Shown: positions 589 through 16,852 of the stretch, piece after piece
How the letters are laid out: every line of letters begins with the position of its first letter
Numbering within the stretch: position 1 is the first letter of the stretch
Assembly (NCBI GenBank): GCA_903860195.1
Contig: CAIOPO010000048.1
Span: 1-55,660, forward strand
DNA from: an uncultured Opitutia bacterium
Lineage (GTDB): Bacteria; Verrucomicrobiota; Verrucomicrobiia; Opitutales; UBA953
Direction: 5' to 3'
DNA length: 55,660 nucleotides
Program-made: the position numbers and the translations under genes
The notes under the pieces: generated by a model
Seen by the model: only the letters and a program-made list of their open reading frames with translations
Databases searched by the model: none
Told to the model about the DNA's origin: nothing

Positions 589-1584
589 TCACTTCGTGCG
601 CAAAGTCGCCGCGAGTCGGTCGAGCTCCGCCCAGGTGTCGACGGCGGGCCGCAGGCCGAGGTCGCGACGGGCCGCGCTGACGTCGAACCAATGGTCCTTG
701 GCGAGCTCGACGGCGACGAACCGGGTCATGGGCGGTTCGCCCTTGAGGCGGAAAAGCGTCCAGACGCCTTCGAGCGCCGCGCCGATCCAGTAGGCCGCGC
801 GCTGGCTGATCCGCTTCGTGACCGGCCTTTCACCGGCTCCGACGAGCAGTCGGTTGATGAACTCCCAGAGCTTCACCGGCTCGCCCTGCGAGAGGAAGTA
901 GGCCTTGCCGTTGGCGCGTCCGGCGAGGAGCGCGTCGAGCGCCGCAAGGTGGGCGTCGGCCGCGGTGTCGACATGCGTCACGTCGACCCGGTTCCCGCCG
1001 TCGCCGACGATGCGCAGTCGGCCGGCCCGGGCGCGGGCGAGGATGCGCGGGAAGATGTGCGGATCGCCCGGGCCCCAGATCAGGTGAGGCCGGAGCGCGC
1101 AGACTTTGAGGCGCCCCGAGGCGGCCTGCAGCGCGATCCCTTCGGCGACGGCCTTGGTCTCGGCGTAGGCACAGAGCCAGTTATCACCGCAGGGCAGGGA
1201 CTCGTCGGCCCCGCGGAAGGCCTCTCCGGTGAACACGACGCTCGGCGTGCTGGTGTGCACGAGGGCGCGCACTCCATGGGAGCCGCACGCCTCGACGACG
1301 TTCCGGGTGCCGTCGATGTTGACGCGGACGTAATCTTCCCAGGCGCCCCAGACGCCGGCCTTGGCCGCCACGTGGAAGACGTGGTCGCAGCCTTTGACGG
1401 CCGCGTCGACCGCCGCGCGGTCGGCGACGTCTCCGCGGAAGAATTCCACCCTGGCCATGAGCGCGTCGCTCGGCGGAGTGCGGCCGAGCACGCGAACTTT
1501 GTAGCCACGGGCGAGGCAGCGGCGGACCACGGCCCGGCCGAGGAAGCCGGCGCCGCCGGTGACGAGGACCAGGGGCGCGTTCAT
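589..1584 (-). CDS. oleD: OleD-like 2-alkyl-3-oxoalkanoate reductase
   Basis: A 331-residue extended short-chain dehydrogenase of the 3-beta-HSD group. TGGAGFLG (9-16) is the Rossmann NAD(P) loop and YAETK (140-144) the Tyr-x3-Lys catalytic pair. The stretch HVAAKAGVWG with VHTSTPSVVF is characteristic of OleD, which reduces the beta-keto acid made by OleA to the 2-alkyl-3-hydroxy acid used by OleC. The start is the ATG at 1584, which overlaps the oleC stop as ATGA; an upstream in-frame start at 1605 would lie inside oleC. A generic sterol/flavonoid-type reductase would be the alternative, but adjacency to oleC makes OleD much more likely. Confidence 0.85.
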   Translation of the reverse strand: MNAPLVLVTGGAGFLGRAVVRRCLARGYKVRVLGRTPPSDALMARVEFFRGDVADRAAVDAAVKGCDHVFHVAAKAGVWGAWEDYVRVNIDGTRNVVEACGSHGVRALVHTSTPSVVFTGEAFRGADESLPCGDNWLCAYAETKAVAEGIALQAASGRLKVCALRPHLIWGPGDPHIFPRILARARAGRLRIVGDGGNRVDVTHVDTAADAHLAALDALLAGRANGKAYFLSQGEPVKLWEFINRLLVGAGERPVTKRISQRAAYWIGAALEGVWTLFRLKGEPPMTRFVAVELAKDHWFDVSAARRDLGLRPAVDTWAELDRLAATLRTK

Positions 1585-3227
1585 CGGGGCAGGCGTCCGG
1601 CCCAATCCCGCGCGAGGCGGAGCCGGTGAATCTTGGCGTTATGGCGCACGTCCACGGGGAGGGCGCGTTGGAAGACGATGTGCCGCACCAGGCCGGCGCG
1701 GGGATTCACTTCGGCCATGCCCCGCAGCTCCGCTTCGAAGCGCCCGCGCGCCTCCGGCGTCTCGGGGAAAAGTCCCGCGCGCGGCTCCACCACCAGGCAG
1801 GGCGTCTGGTCGGGCGCCTCGCCGGTCCCGATGAGCGCGCAGCGCGCCACGTGCGGATGCTGCCGGAACGCCGGTTCGAGGCATTCGGTCGGCAGGTCGC
1901 CGGCGGCGCAGCGGACCTTTTCCGCCCTGCGGCCGAGGAAGAACAGGCGTCCGTCCGGCCCGATCCGGCCGAGGTCGCCCATGCGATGCCAGACCCGGTC
2001 GCCGTCCCTGATCTTGGCCAGCCGCGTGGCTTCCGGCAGGTCGTCATAGTCGCGCGTGACGCTGGGTCCCGTCACGATGATCTCCCCGGTCTCCCCCGTC
2101 GCGCAGGACGTCGCTTCACCGAGCGTCGCGAGCGCCCGGTCGGTCTCCCGGATCACGCGCACCTCGACCCCGTCCACCGGGCGTCCGACGCACGTCCCCT
2201 CGCCGCGCAGGGCGAGCTGCCGCGCCTCCCCGAGCAGCTCCTCGTCCGTGATCGTCGTGACCGGCAGGCATTCCGTGGCGCCGTAGGGCGTGTGCGTCAC
2301 GCAGGACGGCGCGACGATGCGCAGCTTGGACAGCAGTTCTCCTGAGACCGGCGCGCCGGCGATGAGCAGGCGGCGCAGCGAGGGCAGGGTGATCCCGCGT
2401 GACTCGCAGTGGTCGGCGACCTTGCCCCAGATGGCGGGGGAGCCGAAGGAGGTCGTGACCTTCTCCGAAAGCAGGGCCGAGACGAGGGCCTCCGCGTCCG
2501 CGGACATCGGACGGGACGGGTCGAGCGCGGGCGTGACGGTAGTCACGCCCAAGGCCGGATTGAAGAGGGCGAAAAGCGGAAGCATCGCCATGTCGACCTC
2601 CCCCGGGCGGATGCCGAAGGTCGAGCGCACCAGGCCGATCTGGGCCTCGAACATGCCGTGCTCGTAGCGCACGCCTTTGGGCGTGCCGGTTGAGCCCGAG
2701 GTGAAGAGTATCGCCGCCAGGTCGTCCGGCGACTTGTGCGCGAGCGGACGGGGCGCGCCGGCCGGGGCCGCCATCGCCTTGCGCCAACGCTTCCCGCCGC
2801 AGGTCAGTCGCACGCGGAGGGAGTCCAGCGCCGGCAGCGGAAGACGGCTGAGCAAAGTCGCCGTCCGCACTCCCAAGATGGCGGTCGGCGCGGAACTCCT
2901 CACGCATCCCAGGAAGCGCGCGAGGCCCATGCCCGGATCGATCGCCACGGGCACCGCGCCCAGTTTCAGCAGGCCGAACATGCCGATGATGAGTTCGGGG
3001 CCGGGCCGGACCGCCAGCAGCACCCTGTCTCCGGCCCGGATGCCTTCGGACTCCATCAGGGCGGCCGCCGCGTCACTCTCCCGGTCGAGTTCCCTGAAGG
3101 AACGTGCCGCATGCCGCACCCGGCCGTCCTTTTCACGACCCGACGGTGACAGCGTGGCGGTGGCCTCCGGAGTGCGGAGGGCCGCCTCTCGCAGGTGGCG
3201 GGCGACGTTGGCGCCGGGGTCGTTCAT
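1581..3227 (-). CDS. oleC: OleC-like beta-lactone synthetase (acyl-adenylating family)
   Basis: A 548-residue member of the ANL (acyl-CoA synthetase-like) superfamily. The ATP-binding motif FTSGSTGTPKG lies at 175-185 and the C-terminal adenylation lysine is K532 (NAKIHR), near the extreme C terminus as in OleC. AIDPGMGLARFLGCV (95-109) and the short C-terminal subdomain are typical of OleC. OleC cyclises syn-2-alkyl-3-hydroxyalkanoic acids to cis-beta-lactones, which OleB then decarboxylates to long-chain olefins. The downstream gene, oleD, is coupled by an ATGA overlap. oleA (thiolase-like) and oleB (alpha/beta hydrolase) are not in this window. GAGG lies 4 bases before the ATG, one of few plausible ribosome binding sites here. 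Confidence 0.87.
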   Translation of the reverse strand: MNDPGANVARHLREAALRTPEATATLSPSGREKDGRVRHAARSFRELDRESDAAAALMESEGIRAGDRVLLAVRPGPELIIGMFGLLKLGAVPVAIDPGMGLARFLGCVRSSAPTAILGVRTATLLSRLPLPALDSLRVRLTCGGKRWRKAMAAPAGAPRPLAHKSPDDLAAILFTSGSTGTPKGVRYEHGMFEAQIGLVRSTFGIRPGEVDMAMLPLFALFNPALGVTTVTPALDPSRPMSADAEALVSALLSEKVTTSFGSPAIWGKVADHCESRGITLPSLRRLLIAGAPVSGELLSKLRIVAPSCVTHTPYGATECLPVTTITDEELLGEARQLALRGEGTCVGRPVDGVEVRVIRETDRALATLGEATSCATGETGEIIVTGPSVTRDYDDLPEATRLAKIRDGDRVWHRMGDLGRIGPDGRLFFLGRRAEKVRCAAGDLPTECLEPAFRQHPHVARCALIGTGEAPDQTPCLVVEPRAGLFPETPEARGRFEAELRGMAEVNPRAGLVRHIVFQRALPVDVRHNAKIHRLRLARDWAGRLPR

Positions 3228-3232
3228 GTCCT

Positions 3233-3262
3233 CAAATGAAGAAGCCCCGTCTCCGGGGCTTC
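3233..3262 (-). terminator. Rho-independent terminator after the small lipoprotein gene
   Basis: Perfect 9-bp stem, GAAGCCCCG (3241-3249) and CGGGGCTTC (3254-3262), loop of 4. On the minus strand it is followed by TTCATTTG, a tail shared with two other minus-strand terminators in this window. It sits between the lipoprotein stop and the oleC start, so oleC should have its own promoter or depend on read-through. Confidence 0.85.
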
Positions 3263-3282
3263 GGCGGGGGAGCCGGCGAGGC

Positions 3283-3537
3283 TCAGTAGTCCGAAATCGT
3301 GATGGCGCCCCAGAGCAGGGTCACGCGGTCGCCGCTGGAGTTGCGTCGGGCCATGACCTCGTTGGTGCTCAGATTGACCTTGGTGCCGGAGTTGTAGCCG
3401 TAGGAGGCGGGCTCGGTCTTCACGATTCCGAAGAAATTGTGGCTGGGTTCGGCGGCCACCGACTTCGCGTGGTACGGGGTGTCGTAGGTGGTGCATCCTG
3501 CGAGCAGCAGCAGGGAGGCGAAGGCGAGGGACTTCAT
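3283..3537 (-). CDS. Small lipoprotein of unknown function
   Basis: An 84-residue protein. The N terminus MKSLAFASLLLLAGC has a Lys, a hydrophobic core and a lipobox (LAGC) with the lipidated cysteine at residue 15, so it should be exported and anchored by signal peptidase II processing. I chose the ATG at 3537 because the upstream ATG at 3558 would put extra polar residues before the signal peptide. The mature part (about 70 residues) is polar and ends in a short hydrophobic strand, LLWGAITIS. No family is recognised. A clear terminator follows, and the gene is probably monocistronic, 60 bp downstream of the prepilin peptidase stop. Confidence 0.72.
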   Translation of the reverse strand: MKSLAFASLLLLAGCTTYDTPYHAKSVAAEPSHNFFGIVKTEPASYGYNSGTKVNLSTNEVMARRNSSGDRVTLLWGAITISDY

Positions 3538-3597
3538 GGTCGGGGGTGGGGTTTCCAAGATGGGAAGGGGGGAGGGGGTGACAAGCCCGAACCTTGC

Positions 3598-4452
3598 TCA
3601 GCCGGAGACCCAATGGTGCCAGGCCCGCACCAGTTCCGGCCCTCTGAGGAACCAGAGCGCCCCGGCCACGGCCATGCTGGGCACGAAGGGCACCACCCCC
3701 TCGTATTCCGCTCCCCGGACGCGGGCTGAAATCACGCCGGGCAGCGCGGTGATCACGCCCACGATCGAGCCTCCGAACAGGCAGAAAAGGGCCCCTTCCC
3801 AGCCGCACCAGGCGCCGACGCCCGCGCACAGGATGATGTCCGCCTCACCCATGGCTTCACGCCCCGCCAGCACCGTCCCGACCGTCCTCACCCACCAGAC
3901 GACGGCGGTGCCCACCGCGATGCCGAACAGCGAGTCGCCGGCCGAATGGATCCGGTTCATCGCCGCCACGGCATGACCCGTCTCTCCCTGCAGTTCAGGC
4001 AGCAGCATCGAGGCCATGAGCCCGGCGCCCACCAGGGTGAAGTTGGGGGCGTCGGGCACGAGCATGTCCTCCAGGTCGCATCCCGCCAGCAGGATGAGCA
4101 AGGGAAGGAAGAGGCATGCGGCGAACGCCTTCGCGGGAGGCAGCAGCCACCATGAACCGGCGAAGGCCAGCGCGGTGAGCAGCTCGACCACCGGATAGCG
4201 CGCCGAAATCCTTCCGCCGCAGCAACGGGCGCGGCCGCGCAGCAGCAGCCAGCCCAGGACCGGGAGATTGCACCACCAGGGGATGGGTTCGCCGCAGGCG
4301 CAACGGGAGCCCGGAGTGACGACGGATTCCCCTTTGGGCAGACGGTGGATGCAGACGTTGAGGAAGCTCCCGACGCACGCGCCCACCAGGCCGAAGCAGA
4401 CCAGGACGGCTCCGGGGTGGAGCGCGGCGAATCTCTCAAAGGCGGCGGTCAT
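3598..4452 (-). CDS. pilD: Type IV prepilin peptidase / N-methyltransferase
   Basis: A 284-residue polytopic inner-membrane aspartic protease that cleaves the leader of type IV pilins and pseudopilins and methylates the new N terminus. GSFLNVCIHRLP (28-39) is the family signature near the N terminus. The cytoplasmic loop 49-91 holds the metal-type cysteines, but with unusual spacing (CAC at 51-53 and CC at 77-78 instead of two CxxC pairs). The catalytic aspartates are D126 (in CDLEDMLVPD) and D205 (in GEAD, where GxGD is usual). About seven or eight hydrophobic segments follow. It overlaps the aroE stop by ATGA. Its likely clients belong to the pilus system whose ATPases lie at 46.9-52.7 kb. 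Confidence 0.9.
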   Translation of the reverse strand: MTAAFERFAALHPGAVLVCFGLVGACVGSFLNVCIHRLPKGESVVTPGSRCACGEPIPWWCNLPVLGWLLLRGRARCCGGRISARYPVVELLTALAFAGSWWLLPPAKAFAACLFLPLLILLAGCDLEDMLVPDAPNFTLVGAGLMASMLLPELQGETGHAVAAMNRIHSAGDSLFGIAVGTAVVWWVRTVGTVLAGREAMGEADIILCAGVGAWCGWEGALFCLFGGSIVGVITALPGVISARVRGAEYEGVVPFVPSMAVAGALWFLRGPELVRAWHHWVSG

Positions 4453-5342
4453 GGAAGGGGCTTTTCGCCGATGGCGTCGCGCATCGGTCCGGAGGGAGGC
4501 AGGATGCCGGTCCAGATGCGGAAGGCGAGGGCGCCTTGCCAGCGGAGCATCGGGCGTCCGTCGCAGCCGGCGGCGCCGGCCGCCCTGGCTTCCCGGAGAA
4601 GCCGTGATTCGGACGGACCGTACGTGGTGTCGAAGATGAAGTGGTCCGACCGGAGCGCCTCGCGCGCCAGCGGCGAGGCGTCCTCCGCCTTGAGCCCCAG
4701 GACCGTGCAGTTGACGATGACCGCGCCGGGCGGAGGACGGAGCGCGGCTGACAGCGCCGTGGCCCGGGCCCGTCCGTCGTCGAGGCCCGCCGCCACCGCG
4801 GCGGCCTTCGCCTCGTCACGGTTGGCGATGAGCAACGAGGCGCAGCCGGCGTCCAGGCAGGCGGCGGCCACGGCGCGCGCGGCGCCGCCGGCCCCGAGGA
4901 TGACGACCGGCCGTCCGGCCGCGCCGGCGCCGGAGCTTTCCTTCAGCGCCTCGAGAAAGCCCGGCCCGTCCGTGGTGCGTCCTTCCCAGCCGGCCTCGAC
5001 GCGCACCAGCGTGTTGACCGAACCGGCGCGGCGGGCTTCGGGCGAGAGCGAGGTCACCAGGCCGAGCGCCGCGACCTTGTGCGGCACGGTGAGGTTGAGT
5101 CCGATGAAGCCGGCGGCGTGCAATGACCGCAGCGCCGCGCCGAGCTCGTCCGCCTTCACGTGCAGGCGCAGGTAGCGCAGCCGGCCGATCTCCGGGGAGG
5201 AGGAGGCCAGCGCCGCGATGGCCGCGGAGTGCATCTGCGGGCTCAGCGAATGGGCGACGGGGTCGCCGAGCACGCCGAGCCGCGGGCCGTCGGGCCGCAG
5301 GGCGGCGATCGCCGCCGCGTCGAGGGCTGCGTGCGGGTTCAT
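4449..5342 (-). CDS. aroE: Shikimate dehydrogenase
   Basis: A 297-residue enzyme of the shikimate pathway that reduces 3-dehydroshikimate to shikimate with NADPH. The substrate motif SLSP is at 32-35, the catalytic lysine is K89 in LTVPHK, NTLV follows around 110-113, and the nucleotide loop GAGGAA is at 150-155. The length is slightly above the typical 270-290 because of an extended N terminus. The ATG at 5342 overlaps the stop of the upstream gene as ATGA, and its own stop overlaps the prepilin peptidase start in the same way, so these three genes form one translationally coupled operon. Confidence 0.93.
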   Translation of the reverse strand: MNPHAALDAAAIAALRPDGPRLGVLGDPVAHSLSPQMHSAAIAALASSSPEIGRLRYLRLHVKADELGAALRSLHAAGFIGLNLTVPHKVAALGLVTSLSPEARRAGSVNTLVRVEAGWEGRTTDGPGFLEALKESSGAGAAGRPVVILGAGGAARAVAAACLDAGCASLLIANRDEAKAAAVAAGLDDGRARATALSAALRPPPGAVIVNCTVLGLKAEDASPLAREALRSDHFIFDTTYGPSESRLLREARAAGAAGCDGRPMLRWQGALAFRIWTGILPPSGPMRDAIGEKPLP

Positions 5343-9923: not shown

Positions 9924-11104
9924 GCGCCTTCCCGGTCATCCCCGCGGAATTCCCGCGCCCGAGGGCCGGGGGCGTCGACGTCCTCGTGGTGGCCGGCGAG
10001 CATTCCGGCGACCAGCATGCGGCCGAGATGGTCCGGGCGCTCGCCGCCTCGCGGCCCGGCCTGCGCGTCGCCGCCTTCGGCGGCCCGGCGCTGCGCGAGG
10101 CCGGAGCCCAGCTGCTGCTGGACATGACCGCTTTCTCCGCGGTCGGAATCGTCGAGGTCGTCTCGGCGTATCCCTTCTACCGGCGGCTGTTCGCGGCGAT
10201 GCGCGCCTGGACCTTGCGCTGGCGGCCCGCGCTGGTCGTGCTGGTCGACTATCCGGGTCTCAACCTCAGGCTGGCCTCGGAGCTCCGGCGGGCCGGCCTC
10301 TCCCGGCAGGGCGGCGGCGAGACGGCCGTCATCCAGTACGTCAGTCCCCAGCTCTGGGCCTGGAAGCCGCGGCGTCGTTTCCCGATGGCCCGCGACCTCG
10401 ACGCCGTCGGCACGATCTTCCCCTTTGAGACGGCGTGCTACGCCGACACCTCGCTGCCCGCGACCTTCGTCGGGCATCCTTTCGTTGACGCCTCGCACGT
10501 GCCCCCGGTCCGGCATGATCCCGAGGGTCCGGTGCTGCTGCTTCCGGGCAGCCGTCCCAAGCCCGTCCGGAAGATATTCCCTTCGCTGGTGGAGGCCTTC
10601 GCGCGCTACCGCCGGCATGACCCGCGGCGACGCGCCCTCGTGCTCCACACCGGCGGCGCCGTGCACTCCGAGCTTTATCGTCTGCTTGCGGAGTACGGCG
10701 ACGCCGCGAAGGGCGTCGACCTCCGGCCCGTGGGCGAAGGTCAGGCGGCAGGTTGCGCCGCATTGGTGAGCTCCGGCACCATGTCGCTTTCGGTCGCCCT
10801 GGCCGGCATTCCCGGCGCCGTAGTCTACCGCGCCAACCCCTTCACCTGGTTCCTGGGGAGGAACGTGCTGGCGCGCGGAGTCGACCGGCTGGGCATCGCC
10901 AACATCCTGCTGAAGCGTGAGGCGTGGCCTGAGTTCCTGCAGACCGCCTGTGAGCCCGAGGCCTTGGCGGCCCGACTGCGGGCCTGCGTGGGCGCGCCCG
11001 AGCCCCGTGAGCGCGCCCTGCGTGACGCCGCGGAGCTCAGGGAGATGCTTTCCGCCCGGCCCGGTTCCACCCCTGCCGAGTGGGCGGCGTCCTTTCTTCC
11101 GTGA
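9920..11104 (+). CDS. lpxB: Lipid-A-disaccharide synthase
   Basis: A 394-residue GT19 glycosyltransferase that joins UDP-diacylglucosamine and lipid X into the lipid A disaccharide at the inner membrane. The N-terminal VVAGEHSGDQHAAEMV (about 23-38), VLVDYPGLNLRLA, YVSPQLWAWKPRR and VGHPFVD are family motifs, and the C-terminal half holds the nucleotide-sugar site (LLPGSRP, SSGTMSLSVALAGIPGAVVYR). It overlaps the preceding oxidoreductase by ATGA and the next gene by GTGA. Its presence shows that the organism is a diderm that makes lipid A. Confidence 0.95.
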   Translation: MSAFPVIPAEFPRPRAGGVDVLVVAGEHSGDQHAAEMVRALAASRPGLRVAAFGGPALREAGAQLLLDMTAFSAVGIVEVVSAYPFYRRLFAAMRAWTLRWRPALVVLVDYPGLNLRLASELRRAGLSRQGGGETAVIQYVSPQLWAWKPRRRFPMARDLDAVGTIFPFETACYADTSLPATFVGHPFVDASHVPPVRHDPEGPVLLLPGSRPKPVRKIFPSLVEAFARYRRHDPRRRALVLHTGGAVHSELYRLLAEYGDAAKGVDLRPVGEGQAAGCAALVSSGTMSLSVALAGIPGAVVYRANPFTWFLGRNVLARGVDRLGIANILLKREAWPEFLQTACEPEALAARLRACVGAPEPRERALRDAAELREMLSARPGSTPAEWAASFLP

Positions 11105-11976
11105 GAAAAGTCGCGGTCCTCGGCTGCGGATACGTCGGAGCGCGGGTCCTGCGTCTCCTCCGGCCGCGCGGGATCTCCGCTTTCGGCGTGGTGCGGTCGG
11201 AGTCTTCCGCCGCCGCGCTGGCGGCGGAAGGGCTCGTCGTTTCGGCCTTTGACATGGATGAGCCGGACTGGACCCGACTGCCGCGCGACTTCGACTGCGT
11301 CGTCTGCGCCGCGAGCGCCGGCGGCGGAGGTCCGGAGGCCTACGTCGCCGCCTATGACCTCCGCGTCCGGCGTGCCGTGCAGTGGGCGAGGTCGGTCGGA
11401 GCGACCCGTTTCATCTTCACCAGTTCCACCGGCGTCTACCGGCAGGATGGTGGAGTGACCGTGGACGAGGATTCACCGGCGGGCGGCGAGCCGGCTTCGG
11501 ATGCGATCCTCGCCGGCGAGGCGGCGGTCGCCGCCGGGGGATTCGCGCAGGCCCGGGCGCTCAGGTTCGGCGGACTTTACGGCCCCGGCCGGCATTACCT
11601 TTTGGACGCTTTCCGTCGGGGCGAGACCGTGGTCGGCGGCCGCTCGGACCATCTCATCAACTATCTTCACGGTGACGACGCGGCCTTGTCCGTGATCGCG
11701 GCGCTGGAACGCGGCCCCGACGGGTTCCGGGTCTACAACGTGACCGACGGTGCGCCCGTGACCAAGGCCGACCTCGCCCGTTGGATCGCCGCCGGACTCG
11801 GGCTGCCTCCGCCGACGTTCGCGCCTGAAGCCGAAGCCGGTCCGCGCCTGCGGCGTGGCGGCCGGACGCAGCCCAGCCGCAGGGTCGATTCCTCCAGAAT
11901 CCTCAGGGAAATGGGGTGGAAGCCGTTTCATCCGGACGTTTATTCCGGCTTGAGGGACTGCCTGCGTCCGGGGTGA
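11101..11976 (+). CDS. NAD(P)-binding SDR/epimerase-like protein (YeeZ-type)
   Basis: A 291-residue atypical extended short-chain dehydrogenase. The GTG at 11101 is preferred: it overlaps the lpxB stop as GTGA and begins MRKVAVLGCGYVG, giving a Rossmann loop at 8-13 right at the N terminus; an ATG at 11080 would add only residues read out of frame within lpxB. SSTGVYRQ, LRFGGLYGPGR and YLHGDDAA are epimerase-type motifs, but the Tyr-x3-Lys pair is not obvious, so it may bind rather than turn over a nucleotide sugar. The substrate is unknown. The Gfo-lpxB-SDR coupling hints at envelope sugar metabolism. Confidence 0.75.
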   Translation: MRKVAVLGCGYVGARVLRLLRPRGISAFGVVRSESSAAALAAEGLVVSAFDMDEPDWTRLPRDFDCVVCAASAGGGGPEAYVAAYDLRVRRAVQWARSVGATRFIFTSSTGVYRQDGGVTVDEDSPAGGEPASDAILAGEAAVAAGGFAQARALRFGGLYGPGRHYLLDAFRRGETVVGGRSDHLINYLHGDDAALSVIAALERGPDGFRVYNVTDGAPVTKADLARWIAAGLGLPPPTFAPEAEAGPRLRRGGRTQPSRRVDSSRILREMGWKPFHPDVYSGLRDCLRPG

Positions 11977-11977
11977 C

Positions 11978-12028
11978 GTAACAGGTTCGTAACAAGAGGG
12001 GCATGGGTCCGTGACGGGGGCGTGACAG
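11978..12028. promoter_or_regulatory. Array of 11-bp-spaced heptamers resembling PhoB boxes
   Basis: Heptamers GTAACAG (11978-11984), GTAACAA (11989-11995), GTGACGG (12011-12017) and GTGACAG (12022-12028) all lie on one 11-bp phase, with one degenerate position at 12000. Read on the minus strand they are CTGTTAC, TTGTTAC, CCGTCAC and CTGTCAC, close to the PhoB half-site CTGTCAT/C with its 4-bp spacers. The next gene is a porin of the phosphate-selective-porin type, which fits. The orientation is reversed relative to the porin, a caveat. A possible -10 (CATACT) lies at 12048-12053. Confidence 0.55.
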
Positions 12029-12100
12029 AGTGTTCACGCCGCAGCCGCCATACTGCCATTCCTCCGTGAGAGGATGCTTTCGCTTATTCGCACCACCCAA

Positions 12101-13411
12101 ATGAAGAACATCCTCAAGACCACGCTGCTGGCGGCCTCCGCCCTGGCGGTCATCCCTGCCGCCGCCCAGGAGCGCAACCCCGCCTTGGACCTCCTCGTCA
12201 AGAAGGGCATCATCACCGCTGAGGAGCGCGCGCAGGCCCTGCAGCAGGCCGCGATCGCGAAGCTCAACTCCCCCAAGGAGACTCCCTGGTACGAGAAGCT
12301 CTCCATCGACGGCTACACGCAGGTGCGTTTCACCGAACAGCTCAATGACGCCGCCTACCTGACCGGCGGACTTCCGGCCGACCGTTCCGTCAGCTCCGCC
12401 GAGTCGTTCGTCATCCGCCGAGGCCGCTTCAAGATCGCCGGCGACGTCGGCCGCGTCTACCTCTACTCGCAGCTCGACTTCGCCGCGAACAACGGCGGCT
12501 CCACCTTCGCCCTTCAGGCGCGCGACCTTTATGCCGACGTCGCTCTGGACGAGGCCAAGGAACATCGCGTGCGCGTCGGACTCTCCAAGGTGCCTTACGG
12601 CTGGGTCAATCTCCAGTCCTCCCAGAACCGCCTGGCGATGGAGCGTCCCGAGGCCCTGAACTCCGCGGTCGAAGGTGAACGTGACCAGGGCGTCTACTAC
12701 ATGTACGCCTCGAAGGAGACGCGCGACCTCTTCAAGTCGCTCGTCAAGGACGGCCTCAAGGGATCGGGCGACTACGGCGTGTTCACCGTCGGCGGCTTCG
12801 GCGGCTCCGGCCTCAACCGTGCGGACAACAACGGAGAGCCCCACCTGCTCGCCCGTCTGAGCTATCCTTGGAAGAGCGCCAGCGGCCAGATCTACGAGGC
12901 CGGCGTCGGCGCCTACTCCGGACGCTTCAAGGTGACCACGGACGGCGTGCGCACCGCCAACACCCTTGCGGCCTACCCCGGTGAGGTGGCGGACGGCTTC
13001 AAGGACCGTCGGGCCTTCGCGACTTTCGTGATGTATCCCCAGCCCTTCGGCATCGAGGCCGAGTGGACCACCGGCCAGGGTCCGCAGATGGACGACGCCA
13101 ACACCGTCGTCAATCTCGGCTCCCTGCACGGCGGCTACATTCTGGCCAACTACCGCATCCAGTCGGGCCTTTCGGAATACATTCCCTTCGTCCGCTGGAA
13201 CTACTTCGACGGCGCCCGCAAGTTCGCCACCAACGCCCCCAAGATGTGCGTGAACGAAATCGACATCGGCATCGAGTGGCAGTGGCGCAAGGAGTGCGAG
13301 CTCACGCTGATGTACACGATGTCCAACGAGCGCAGCAACAGCAGCACCACCGCCCCGGCGATCATCACCGACTCACGTCGTCTCGCCCTGCAGCTCCAGT
13401 TCAACTACTGA
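12101..13411 (+). CDS. Outer-membrane porin (phosphate-selective porin O/P type)
   Basis: A 436-residue outer-membrane beta-barrel. The signal peptide MKNILKTTLLAASALAVIPAAA ends at a typical A-x-A site. A short helical segment follows (LLVKKGIITAEERAQAL, about 29-45), typical of PVC-group porins, and then alternating amphipathic strands to an aromatic C terminus (LQFNY) recognised by the BAM machinery. The ATG at 12101 puts the signal peptide at the N terminus; the ATG at 12074 would add nine residues in front. A strong terminator follows. The substrate is not certain; the Pho-box-like array upstream suggests induction under phosphate limitation. Confidence 0.82.
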   Translation: MKNILKTTLLAASALAVIPAAAQERNPALDLLVKKGIITAEERAQALQQAAIAKLNSPKETPWYEKLSIDGYTQVRFTEQLNDAAYLTGGLPADRSVSSAESFVIRRGRFKIAGDVGRVYLYSQLDFAANNGGSTFALQARDLYADVALDEAKEHRVRVGLSKVPYGWVNLQSSQNRLAMERPEALNSAVEGERDQGVYYMYASKETRDLFKSLVKDGLKGSGDYGVFTVGGFGGSGLNRADNNGEPHLLARLSYPWKSASGQIYEAGVGAYSGRFKVTTDGVRTANTLAAYPGEVADGFKDRRAFATFVMYPQPFGIEAEWTTGQGPQMDDANTVVNLGSLHGGYILANYRIQSGLSEYIPFVRWNYFDGARKFATNAPKMCVNEIDIGIEWQWRKECELTLMYTMSNERSNSSTTAPAIITDSRRLALQLQFNY

Positions 13412-13526: not shown

Positions 13527-14156
13527 TCAGATTCCCCGGTAGTTCGAGGAGCCGTTGTCGAGGCCGCGGGCCCGTCCCTTGAGGCGAGCGAGCTCCTCTT
13601 CCAGCTCCTTGACCCTGGCTTCGGCCTTGGCGGCGCGCGCGTTGGCCTCACGGAGCGCGGCGGAGGCCGCCTCGAGGTCGCCTTCGGCCTTCTTGCGGCG
13701 CTCGATGGCGTCACGCAGTTCCGCGCCGCTGCGGAGGGTGGCGAGTTCGGTCGAGAGCGCGTTGACCTGGGCGGCGGCGTCGGCGCGGGCCTTTTCAAGT
13801 TCGGCGGCTCGGGTGGCGGCCTTGGCCAGTGCGTCCTTGGCGTCCTTCGCCGCGGACTGGGCCGCTTCGAGGTCCTTCTTGGCGGCCTTCGAGGCTTCGA
13901 CCGCGGCGTTGAGCTGCGTCTTCACGTCGGCGGCTTCGGCGGCGGCGGCCTTGAGCGACTTCTCAAGGTCGGCGATGCGGGCGCGGTGTTCGCCGTCGGC
14001 CTTGGTCAGCTGGGCGTTGCGCACATTGGCGGCGTTGAGGGCGGCCTGGGCCTTGTCGGCCCGCTCGATGGCCTCGGCCTCACCGTTCCAGGTGATGACG
14101 GCGATGCCGGCAAAGGTGGTGGCGAGGGCGGCCAGGACGATTTCAGAGGTCTTCAT
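13527..14156 (-). CDS. Membrane-anchored coiled-coil protein of unknown function
   Basis: A 209-residue protein. Residues 5-23 (EIVLAALATTFAGIAVITW) form one hydrophobic segment that acts as an anchor or uncleaved signal. From about 27 to 195 the sequence is almost wholly heptad coiled coil rich in Ala, Glu, Lys and Arg (for example KVELEEELARLKGR-like repeats near 180-195), with a short polar tail, NGSSNYRGI. The topology suggests an extended periplasmic or cytoplasmic rod. The gene is 55 bp downstream of the carboxynorspermidine decarboxylase gene and ends in its own terminator. The low-complexity composition prevents family assignment. Confidence 0.72.
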   Translation of the reverse strand: MKTSEIVLAALATTFAGIAVITWNGEAEAIERADKAQAALNAANVRNAQLTKADGEHRARIADLEKSLKAAAAEAADVKTQLNAAVEASKAAKKDLEAAQSAAKDAKDALAKAATRAAELEKARADAAAQVNALSTELATLRSGAELRDAIERRKKAEGDLEAASAALREANARAAKAEARVKELEEELARLKGRARGLDNGSSNYRGI

Positions 14157-14211: not shown

Positions 14212-15387
14212 TCAGGACAGCCTGCCCTTGTAGTCCGCGTAGCCGAACCGCCTGACCACGTGGATCCTGCCGTCCGCAGGCTCGTAGGAGGCGATGGCGG
14301 GCAGGGGCACCCCGTTGAACGTCGTGTTCTTCACGAAAGTGTAGTGCGACATGTCCAGGAACACCAGCCGCCGGCCGGGCCTGAGCGGTTCGGCGAAGGA
14401 GTAGTCACCGATGACGTCCCCCGCCAGGCAGGTGGAGCTCCCGAGCCGGTAAGTGTGAGCCAGCTTGCCCGGCAGGTCGGCCCCCACGATGTCGGGGCGG
14501 TACGGCATCTCCAGCGTGTCCGGCATGTGGCAGGTCGCGGAGATGTCCAGGATGGCGATCTCCATTCCGTTCCGGACCACGTCCAGCACCGTGCCCACGA
14601 GCACGCCCGTGCCGATGCCGATGGCCTCACCCGGCTCCAGGTAGACCTGGATGTGCTCGCCCCAGCGCCGGCGGAAGTCGGTGATGACCTTCACCAGCAG
14701 GTCGAGGTCGTAGCCCGGCCGCGTGATGTGGTGTCCGCCTCCGAAGTTCACCCATTTCATCATCGGGATGAATTCCCCGAACCGCCGTTCAAACGCCGCC
14801 ACCGTCCGTTGGAGCACGTCGGAGCCCTGCTGGCACATCGTGTGGAAGTGCAGTCCCTCGAGTCCGGCGAGGTCGTCGGCCGACCGGATCTCCGCGCGGG
14901 GCGTGCCGAGGCGTGAGCCGAGCGCGCAAGGATTGTAGAGCTCCACCTCGACCTCGGCGTGCTCGGGGTTCACCCGCAGGCCGAAGGAGACCTTGCGGTC
15001 CGCGGCGAGGCCGCGTTCCCGGAAGCGCCGCCACTGCGAGGGCGAATTGAAGGAGACATGGTCCGCGACCCGCAGCAGCCGCTCGAACTCCTCGTCCTTG
15101 AAGGCCGGCGAGTAGGCGTGCACCTCGCCGCCGAACTCCTCCCGGCCCAGCAGCGCCTCGTGGATGCCGCTGGCCGTCGTGCCGGCGAGGTATTTCGCGA
15201 CGAGCTTCGCCTCGCTGAACTGCGCGAAGCCCTTCAGCGCGAGCAGCACCTTGGCCCCCGACCGGTCCATCACCGACCTCAGCGTGCGGAGGTTCGCTTC
15301 CAGCAGTCCGCGGTGGAGGACGTGGCAGGGGCTCGGGACCTGCGAGAGGTCGATGCGGGAGAAGGCTTCGGTGAGCGCGTCGGACAC
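14212..15387 (-). CDS. nspC: Carboxynorspermidine decarboxylase
   Basis: A 391-residue PLP-dependent decarboxylase of the alanine-racemase-fold III group that converts carboxyspermidine to spermidine (or carboxynorspermidine to norspermidine). K52 in LLALKGF is the predicted Schiff-base lysine, GLHFHTMCQQ and VNFGGGHHITRPGYD form the PLP/phosphate pocket, EPGEAIG follows, and SSTCLAGD supplies the catalytic cysteine from the partner subunit. The start is a GTG at 15387. It follows the dehydrogenase gene on the same strand, so the two form the alternative aspartate-semialdehyde route to spermidine. A terminator lies between them, so either partial read-through or a separate promoter is expected. 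Confidence 0.93.
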   Translation of the reverse strand: MSDALTEAFSRIDLSQVPSPCHVLHRGLLEANLRTLRSVMDRSGAKVLLALKGFAQFSEAKLVAKYLAGTTASGIHEALLGREEFGGEVHAYSPAFKDEEFERLLRVADHVSFNSPSQWRRFRERGLAADRKVSFGLRVNPEHAEVEVELYNPCALGSRLGTPRAEIRSADDLAGLEGLHFHTMCQQGSDVLQRTVAAFERRFGEFIPMMKWVNFGGGHHITRPGYDLDLLVKVITDFRRRWGEHIQVYLEPGEAIGIGTGVLVGTVLDVVRNGMEIAILDISATCHMPDTLEMPYRPDIVGADLPGKLAHTYRLGSSTCLAGDVIGDYSFAEPLRPGRRLVFLDMSHYTFVKNTTFNGVPLPAIASYEPADGRIHVVRRFGYADYKGRLS

Positions 15388-15419
15388 GGCGGCAGGGTTG
15401 CCGCCGCGGGGTCACGGCG

Positions 15420-15447
15420 CAAATGAAAAGCCCGCCGGGCGGCGGGC
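15420..15447 (-). terminator. Terminator or attenuator between carboxynorspermidine dehydrogenase and nspC
   Basis: GCCCGCC (15430-15436) and GGCGGGC (15441-15447) form a 7-bp stem with loop GGGC. The minus-strand tail is TTTTCATTTG. It sits 11 bp after the dehydrogenase stop and before the nspC start, which may lower nspC expression. Confidence 0.8.
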
Positions 15448-15458
15448 CTGCGATCCGG

Positions 15459-16655
<1,197 letters not shown>

Positions 16656-16689
16656 GGGTGGCGTCATCATCCCTCCGCGGGCGGTGGGG

Positions 16690-16742
16690 GAAAGACAAAA
16701 CCTCGGACCGGCCGTGACGGGCCGGTGACGGCCTTCGGTCCG
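16690..16742 (-). terminator. Probable terminator downstream of tRNA-Asp
   Basis: CGGACCG (16704-16710) pairs with CGGTCCG (16736-16742), and inside it GCCGT (16711-16715) with ACGGC (16728-16732). On the minus strand a T-rich stretch (GGTTTTGTCTTT) follows. It lies 20 bp beyond the tRNA 3' end and upstream of the dehydrogenase start, so the dehydrogenase promoter must lie within or after it. Confidence 0.6.
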
Positions 16743-16752
16743 GGCCGGAGCC

Positions 16753-16852
16753 CCTTTCGGCTGGCGGGATGGACGGGACTTGAACCCGCGACCTCCTACG
16801 TGACAGGCAGGCGCTCTAACCAACTGAGCTACCACCCCGGACAGCCGAAAGG
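16753..16852. repeat. Perfect 11-bp inverted repeat flanking tRNA-Asp
   Basis: CCTTTCGGCTG (16753-16763) and CAGCCGAAAGG (16842-16852) flank the tRNA exactly, one arm running into the encoded CCA end. In the transcript the leader would pair with the trailer and extend the acceptor stem by a long helix. Confidence 0.9.
16762..16838 (-). tRNA. tRNA-Asp (GTC)
   Basis: A 77-nt cloverleaf with encoded CCA. The acceptor arms are GGGGTGG and CCATCCC (one G-U pair), the discriminator is G, the D arm contains AGCTCAGTTGGTTAGAGC, the anticodon stem is CCTGC/GTAGG with loop CTGTCAC (anticodon GTC), and the T loop is TTCAAGT. G73 and the GUC anticodon agree with aspartate identity. Confidence 0.97.

Follow-up and report, generated by a model that had tools for sequence, protein, structure and literature searches.

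A phased array of 11-bp repeats before a Porin_O_P gene in an uncultured Opitutales bacterium is probably a PhoB operator

The closest described counterparts of the array reported here are the boxes bound by PhoB and PhoP. The Escherichia coli PHO box, CTGTCAT-N4-CTGTCAT, consists of 11-bp direct repeats with 7 conserved and 4 loose bases per unit, and stands before pst and other phosphate genes; PhoB contacts sigma-70 at these boxes (PMC4415409). The PhoP box of Streptomyces coelicolor, GTTCACC-N4-GTTCACC, is also built from 11-bp repeats and occurs in complex operators with units of unequal strength (PMC4415409, PMC4832192). PhoP of Mycobacterium tuberculosis, a regulator of the same family, binds TCACAGC-N4-TCACAGC sites as a tandem dimer, trimer, or tetramer; its 4-bp spacer is strict, and three or four repeats are bound more tightly than two (PMC4832192). 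In Pseudomonas aeruginosa, the porins OprP and OprO rise >80-fold at low phosphate, along with PhoB and Pst (PMC9769906).

The locus described here shares with the E. coli box its unit plan, its 11-bp direct repeats, and its occurrence before pst and phosphate genes, and with the S. coelicolor box its 11-bp repeats, complex operators, and unequal units; the TTCAC/GTCAC words of the latter are close to unit 6 of the array and to units before the phosphate transporter gene pit. It differs from the E. coli box in its code, G(T/A/C)(C/A)AC(A/G) and then GTAACAAT on the coding strand, in its up to eight in-phase units, and in its Opitutales host. From the S. coelicolor box it differs in phylum and in its strongest unit, which is GTAACA in the Opitutales genus, not GTTCACC. 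From M. tuberculosis PhoP it differs in regulator and regulon, and the locus is known from sequence alone.

We analyzed a window of 55,660 nucleotides, contig C48 of a draft genome (G000; 2.1 Mb, 209 contigs, 85% complete) whose near relatives, mostly MAGs, are recorded as Opitutales, Opitutae, or Verrucomicrobiota. On one side of the array an epimerase-like gene stops (11976); on the other a Porin_O_P gene starts with an ATG (12101). In the following list, clade A denotes G000 and two sister species (G019 and G005).

11080 to 11976, plus strand: NAD-dependent epimerase-like gene, the upstream neighbour, ending just before the array
11978 to 11988, plus strand: array unit 1, GTAACAGGTTC; GTCAC in both sister species
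11989 to 11999, plus strand: array unit 2, GTAACAAGAGG; GTAAC the same in all three clade A species
12000 to 12010, plus strand: array unit 3, degenerate in G000, GGCATGGGTCC; GACGC and GACAC in the sister species
12011 to 12021, plus strand: array unit 4, GTGACGGGGGC; GTCTC and GTCCC in the sister species
12022 to 12032, plus strand: array unit 5, GTGACAGAGTG; GTGAC the same in all three clade A species
12033 to 12043, plus strand: array unit 6, TTCACGCCGCA; TTCAC kept in clade A and in 18 of 18 aligned clade C porin promoters
12044 to 12065, plus strand: weak in-phase units 7 (from 12044) and 8 (from 12055), GCCGCCATACT and GCCATTCCTCC; other species have strong units (GCCAC, GTAAC) at these positions
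12066 to 12076, plus strand: conserved -10 block, GTGAGAGGATG, with a predicted -10 hexamer GAGGAT at 12070-12075, beginning 15 bp beyond the first base of unit 8
12101 to 13411, plus strand: outer-membrane porin, Porin_O_P (PF07396; E = 6.7e-32), with a signal-peptide-like N-terminus; the reading frame is also open from an ATG at 12074

The initial annotation had placed four words on one 11-bp grid of the plus strand, and we found them exactly there: GTAACAG (11978-11984), GTAACAA (11989-11995), GTGACGG (12011-12017), and GTGACAG (12022-12028). The window thus holds the at least two direct 11-bp repeat units with a conserved core that mark a PHO box; the step at 12000 reads GGCATGG, a misfit to the GTRAC word, and a further GTGAC at 11973 is off phase and shares bases with the stop codon of the epimerase-like gene. 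Of periods 7-21, 11 was the only one at which the window had over two GTRAC words in phase. Four words in five steps occurred in none of 300 second-order Markov windows, whether at 11 bp or at any period of 7-22, and three at 11 bp occurred once, which bears out the earlier judgment that four in-phase copies are improbable by chance. GTRAC-N6-GTRAC pairs with at most one mismatch were not enriched in the window (5 observed vs. 5.6 expected), so that it is the in-phase run that counts. As a regulon finder, the pair alone was too loose and was rejected (13 own-genome matches, mostly inside long open frames).

The 51-bp span first described is real, but its five steps are too short a measure of the array: in G000 and the two sister species the grid extends over up to eight phased units (11978-12065), distal ones strong and proximal ones weak. 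When units were weighted by the pstS and pit promoters, the best of periods 8-14 was 11 in each clade A species, and no shuffle equalled it (0/2000 per species, n = 3).

The porin itself scores 111.6 bits against a Porin_O_P cut-off of 20.9, and its AlphaFold2 model is a beta-barrel (mean pLDDT 72) whose best PDB matches are porins, including Omp-Pst2, DcaP, and OmpF (TM about 0.5-0.65); OprP is unnamed among the 50 structure matches listed. OprP and OprO are namesakes of the family, whereas the window porin has no match to PDB sequences, and hence to solved structures, at E <= 1. "Phosphate-selective", the type given in the initial annotation, comes from the Pfam name of Porin_O_P and would be a putative property of this porin; the model is most like general porins and gives no sign of phosphate selectivity, phosphate being the predicted cargo. 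The locus is syntenic: the epimerase gene adjoins the porin gene in 29 of 30 loci, with porin identity down to about 30%. Convergent with the porin gene is one for a coiled-coil protein (13527-14156, minus strand), and in L028 and L031, from the sister species, a similar coding sequence occupies the corresponding position. Beyond it (14212-16835, minus strand) nspC, encoding carboxynorspermidine decarboxylase, adjoins a carboxynorspermidine-synthase-like gene; proA and proB come next, and the genes represent an alternative route to polyamines.

The Pho-box likeness proposed in the initial annotation could be followed to the phosphate genes of the same genome, which lie on two other contigs:

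Contig C36 of G000: pstS-pstC-pstA-pstB-phoU
Contig C100 of G000: DUF47 gene with a PiT-family transporter gene (pit), divergent from a calcineurin-type phosphoesterase gene

We gathered the regions upstream of pstS and the DUF47 gene from congeners for motif training. The pstS promoters carry GACACGAAACCGTAACAATCGTATGGGATGATG, that is, GACAC and GTAAC at an 11-bp step. The DUF47 promoters have an inverted layout, GTNAC-11-GTAAC-9-GTAA(C) opposite a mirror copy, with some units degenerate in several species. The 34 sites from the two families yielded one gapless motif, G(T/A/C)(C/A)AC(A/G)-N5-GTAACAATCGT, also written on the coding strand as G(T/A/C)(C/A)AC(A/G)-N5-GTAACAAT, and within the genus GNNAC-N6-GTAACA at the same 11-bp step is common to pstS and DUF47-pit promoters. 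The motif stands before pst and another set of phosphate genes both in G000 (pstS on C36, DUF47-pit on C100) and throughout the genus. Likeness of the reverse strand to E. coli CTGTCAT, as invoked in the initial annotation, is not needed: the local coding-strand code suffices, and the argument is independent of the strand read. GTGAC and GTCAC are mutual reverse complements, and the known consensus words differ in the register chosen for them.

Two models were trained without any porin sequence. A position-specific scoring matrix, trained on the pstS and pit sites alone with a correction for 69% GC, placed 11978-11999 at the top of the window with 17.0 bits (runner-up 10.1; 0/200 simulated windows as high). 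The same two-unit score is lower in the sister species, low in G019 (-3.1) and modest in G005 (8.4). The second, a sequence-only profile model from the same sites, was run with Infernal against a uniform background; in its own genome up to E = 10, it listed only the pit and pstS sites, the window site being absent. We count this miss against our reading; the window site stands out only by the GC-corrected matrix and as an array.

Across the genus, the profile model had matches in 38 of 41 genomes (n = 84 matches: pstS 32, the divide between DUF47-pit and the phosphoesterase gene 37, main porin 6, second Porin_O_P gene 4, elsewhere 5). Thus pstS, pit, and porin genes account for 79 of the 84. 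The 10 porin matches, found before the main porin gene in six relatives and before a second Porin_O_P gene in three, are independent of the sites used for training. The boxes at the second Porin_O_P gene are oriented opposite to the gene (L151, 2035-2055; L165, 1995-2150; L168, 2015-2032). Reverse-orientation boxes also occur upstream of genes for proteins with hydrophobic stretches (L155, 2058-2074; L162, 2018-2038; L167, 1547-1566); the two such proteins tested have no Pfam match, and tRNA-gene-like sequence lies on the other side of the L162 and L167 boxes.

Outside the genus, seven of about 170 genomes of the order were matched at E <= 0.02, with about three expected by chance. Four of the seven matches precede genes for two Porin_O_P proteins, one Porin_5 protein, and one Na/Pi cotransporter, a hint of wider use of a related code in the order. 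With so few matches beyond the genus, the exact code is mainly one of the genus, with traces beyond. Outside-genus matches in L173, L176, L178, and L180, each near 1501-1524, include porins and a Na/Pi cotransporter with a PhoU domain.

A Pho-box reading also calls for a PhoB/PhoP-type response regulator with its kinase, and G000 has both genes, side by side:

L024 (contig C130), 4570 to 5265: PhoB-like regulator with receiver and winged-helix domains; TIGR02154 is the best NCBI family (234 bits)
L024, 5303 to 6553: PhoR-like kinase, adjoining phoB; TIGR02966 is the best NCBI family (228 bits)

Both scores fall under the NCBI equivalog cut-offs (234 vs. 296 and 228 vs. 334), each family being the best in its case. 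In a search of the 85% complete G000 genome, PhoB was the sole protein matched by the winged-helix family PF00486 (Trans_reg_C), so that OmpR/PhoB-type boxes in G000 have one known reader; 15% of the genome may be missing, and a second regulator could sit there. Of the two findings that the initial annotation named as counting against a Pho box, a genome lacking PhoB and pst/pho genes lacking the motif, neither was obtained. The pstS and pit matrix gave no good match for a box before phoB, the best (9.5 bits) lying beside the phoB start codon.

We compared porin promoters within the genus by anchoring them on the conserved block NTGAGAGGATG/NTGAGATAGT. One 11-bp grid fits 25 of the 26 promoters examined, and all 25 with an alignable block carry in-phase units. 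The order is GT(A/C)AC, GTAAC, a degenerate unit, GTNNC, GTGAC, TTCAC, two weak units, and the block in clade A; GCCAC or GCCAT, GTAAC, and the block in clade B (four species), which closely resembles pstS; and TTCAC, G(T/C/A)C(T/A)(T/C), GT(A/C)AC, and the block in clade C (18 species). In clade A, units 1, 2, and 5 have high mean scores and units 7 and 8 low ones; in clades B and C and in pstS, by contrast, no unit is stronger than the last. Moving the frame costs score at almost all slots. The position of the strong units thus varies from clade to clade, with phase kept. The predicted -10 hexamer (GAGGAT, GATAGT, GATGAT) begins 15 bp past the first base of the last unit, a spacing equal in alignable porin and pstS promoters. 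The conserved block would thus set the array at a fixed distance from a predicted -10, and the last unit would stand in for a -35 element.

The array with its phase and conservation, the code common to it and the pstS and pit promoters, the PhoB-PhoR pair, and the single regulator of the class found in the genome together argue that, very probably, a PhoB operator occupies 11978-12065 up to the porin -10, with the 51 bp as its distal part, and that phosphorylated PhoB would activate the porin gene under phosphate starvation. The presence of these features is read from the sequence; from them we infer PhoB binding, activation over repression, and phosphate as cargo.

Repression or graded tuning by PhoB at the porin promoter, with PhoB still reading the boxes, appears unlikely. 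In its favour, both activation and repression are open to phosphorylated regulators of the PhoB class (PMC4415409), clade A carries its strong units distally and clades B and C carry theirs proximally, and the proximal units by the -10 are weak in G000. Phase is nevertheless kept to the -10 block, and the strong units of the relatives occupy an activating position with the -10 spacing of pstS. Less probable still is a different regulator, a symmetric dimer, on the dyad GGCGTGA-N8-TCACG(C/T)C (12020-12041), which would make the 11-bp rhythm partly a by-product. This dyad is kept in G000, G019, and G005, but it leaves units 1 and 2 and the phase of the other units unexplained; the grid is also present in promoters lacking the dyad, whose GTGAC and TTCAC are grid units 5 and 6. 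CRP sites have a 6-bp spacer. We rejected a CRP-like reading of GTGA-N8-TCAC, where the spacer is 8, not 6, and where the grid accounts for the dyad. A functionless run of a frequent short word, arising by chance in GC-rich DNA, to which the unenriched pairs might point, is practically refuted by the simulated windows, the independent model, and conservation across species.

Under PhoB activation, PhoR would phosphorylate PhoB when phosphate is scarce, and phosphorylated PhoB would bind the units head-to-tail, one protomer per helical turn. The distal GTAAC/GTAAC pair would likely be the best anchor, from which a row of protomers would run to the weak proximal units, replace a good -35, and recruit RNA polymerase; more porin would be made, and phosphate would cross the outer membrane. 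We propose this distal-to-proximal occupancy and activation because related regulators bind in tandem and PhoB contacts sigma-70. Tandem oligomers with a strict 4-bp spacer, as in M. tuberculosis PhoP, would explain in-phase arrays, and the rise of OprP and OprO at low phosphate fits activation of the window porin. More tentatively, the porin operator may be phase-locked, with binding strength moved proximally or distally between clades of one genus while the places on the grid are kept. PhoB would then assemble into a short filament, at most eight protomers long, along which drift in strength could reset the phosphate threshold with the promoter unmoved.

Divergent from DUF47-pit on contig C100, the calcineurin-type phosphoesterase gene is accompanied by one for a glycosyltransferase with an MGDG-synthase domain. 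The inverted Pho-type array (L023, 3060-3180) lies between genes at 1267-3036 (minus strand) and 3236-5190 (plus strand); its units, 11 and 9 bp apart, face a mirror copy, and it is conserved across the genus. In marine bacteria, PlcP and a glycosyltransferase replace phospholipids at low phosphate; Pho boxes were predicted there, and a verrucomicrobial PlcP was noted (PMC4796936). By analogy, the C100 pair resembles a PlcP-like lipid-remodelling system, and a single operator may serve both phosphate uptake and membrane lipid remodelling. In the literature searched, the Pho box motif of Verrucomicrobiota is undescribed, the nearest paper being that on marine lipid remodelling; Pho control is well known as a system, but its code in this bacterial group is apparently undescribed there.

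The result is a predicted PhoB code and Pho regulon core (pstS, pit, the porin, and probably the PlcP/glycosyltransferase pair) for an Opitutales group known from metagenome-type assemblies. The apparently single OmpR-class regulator in the genome makes the match between regulator and motif unusually clean, and the aligned promoter set is good material on the evolution of multi-unit operators.
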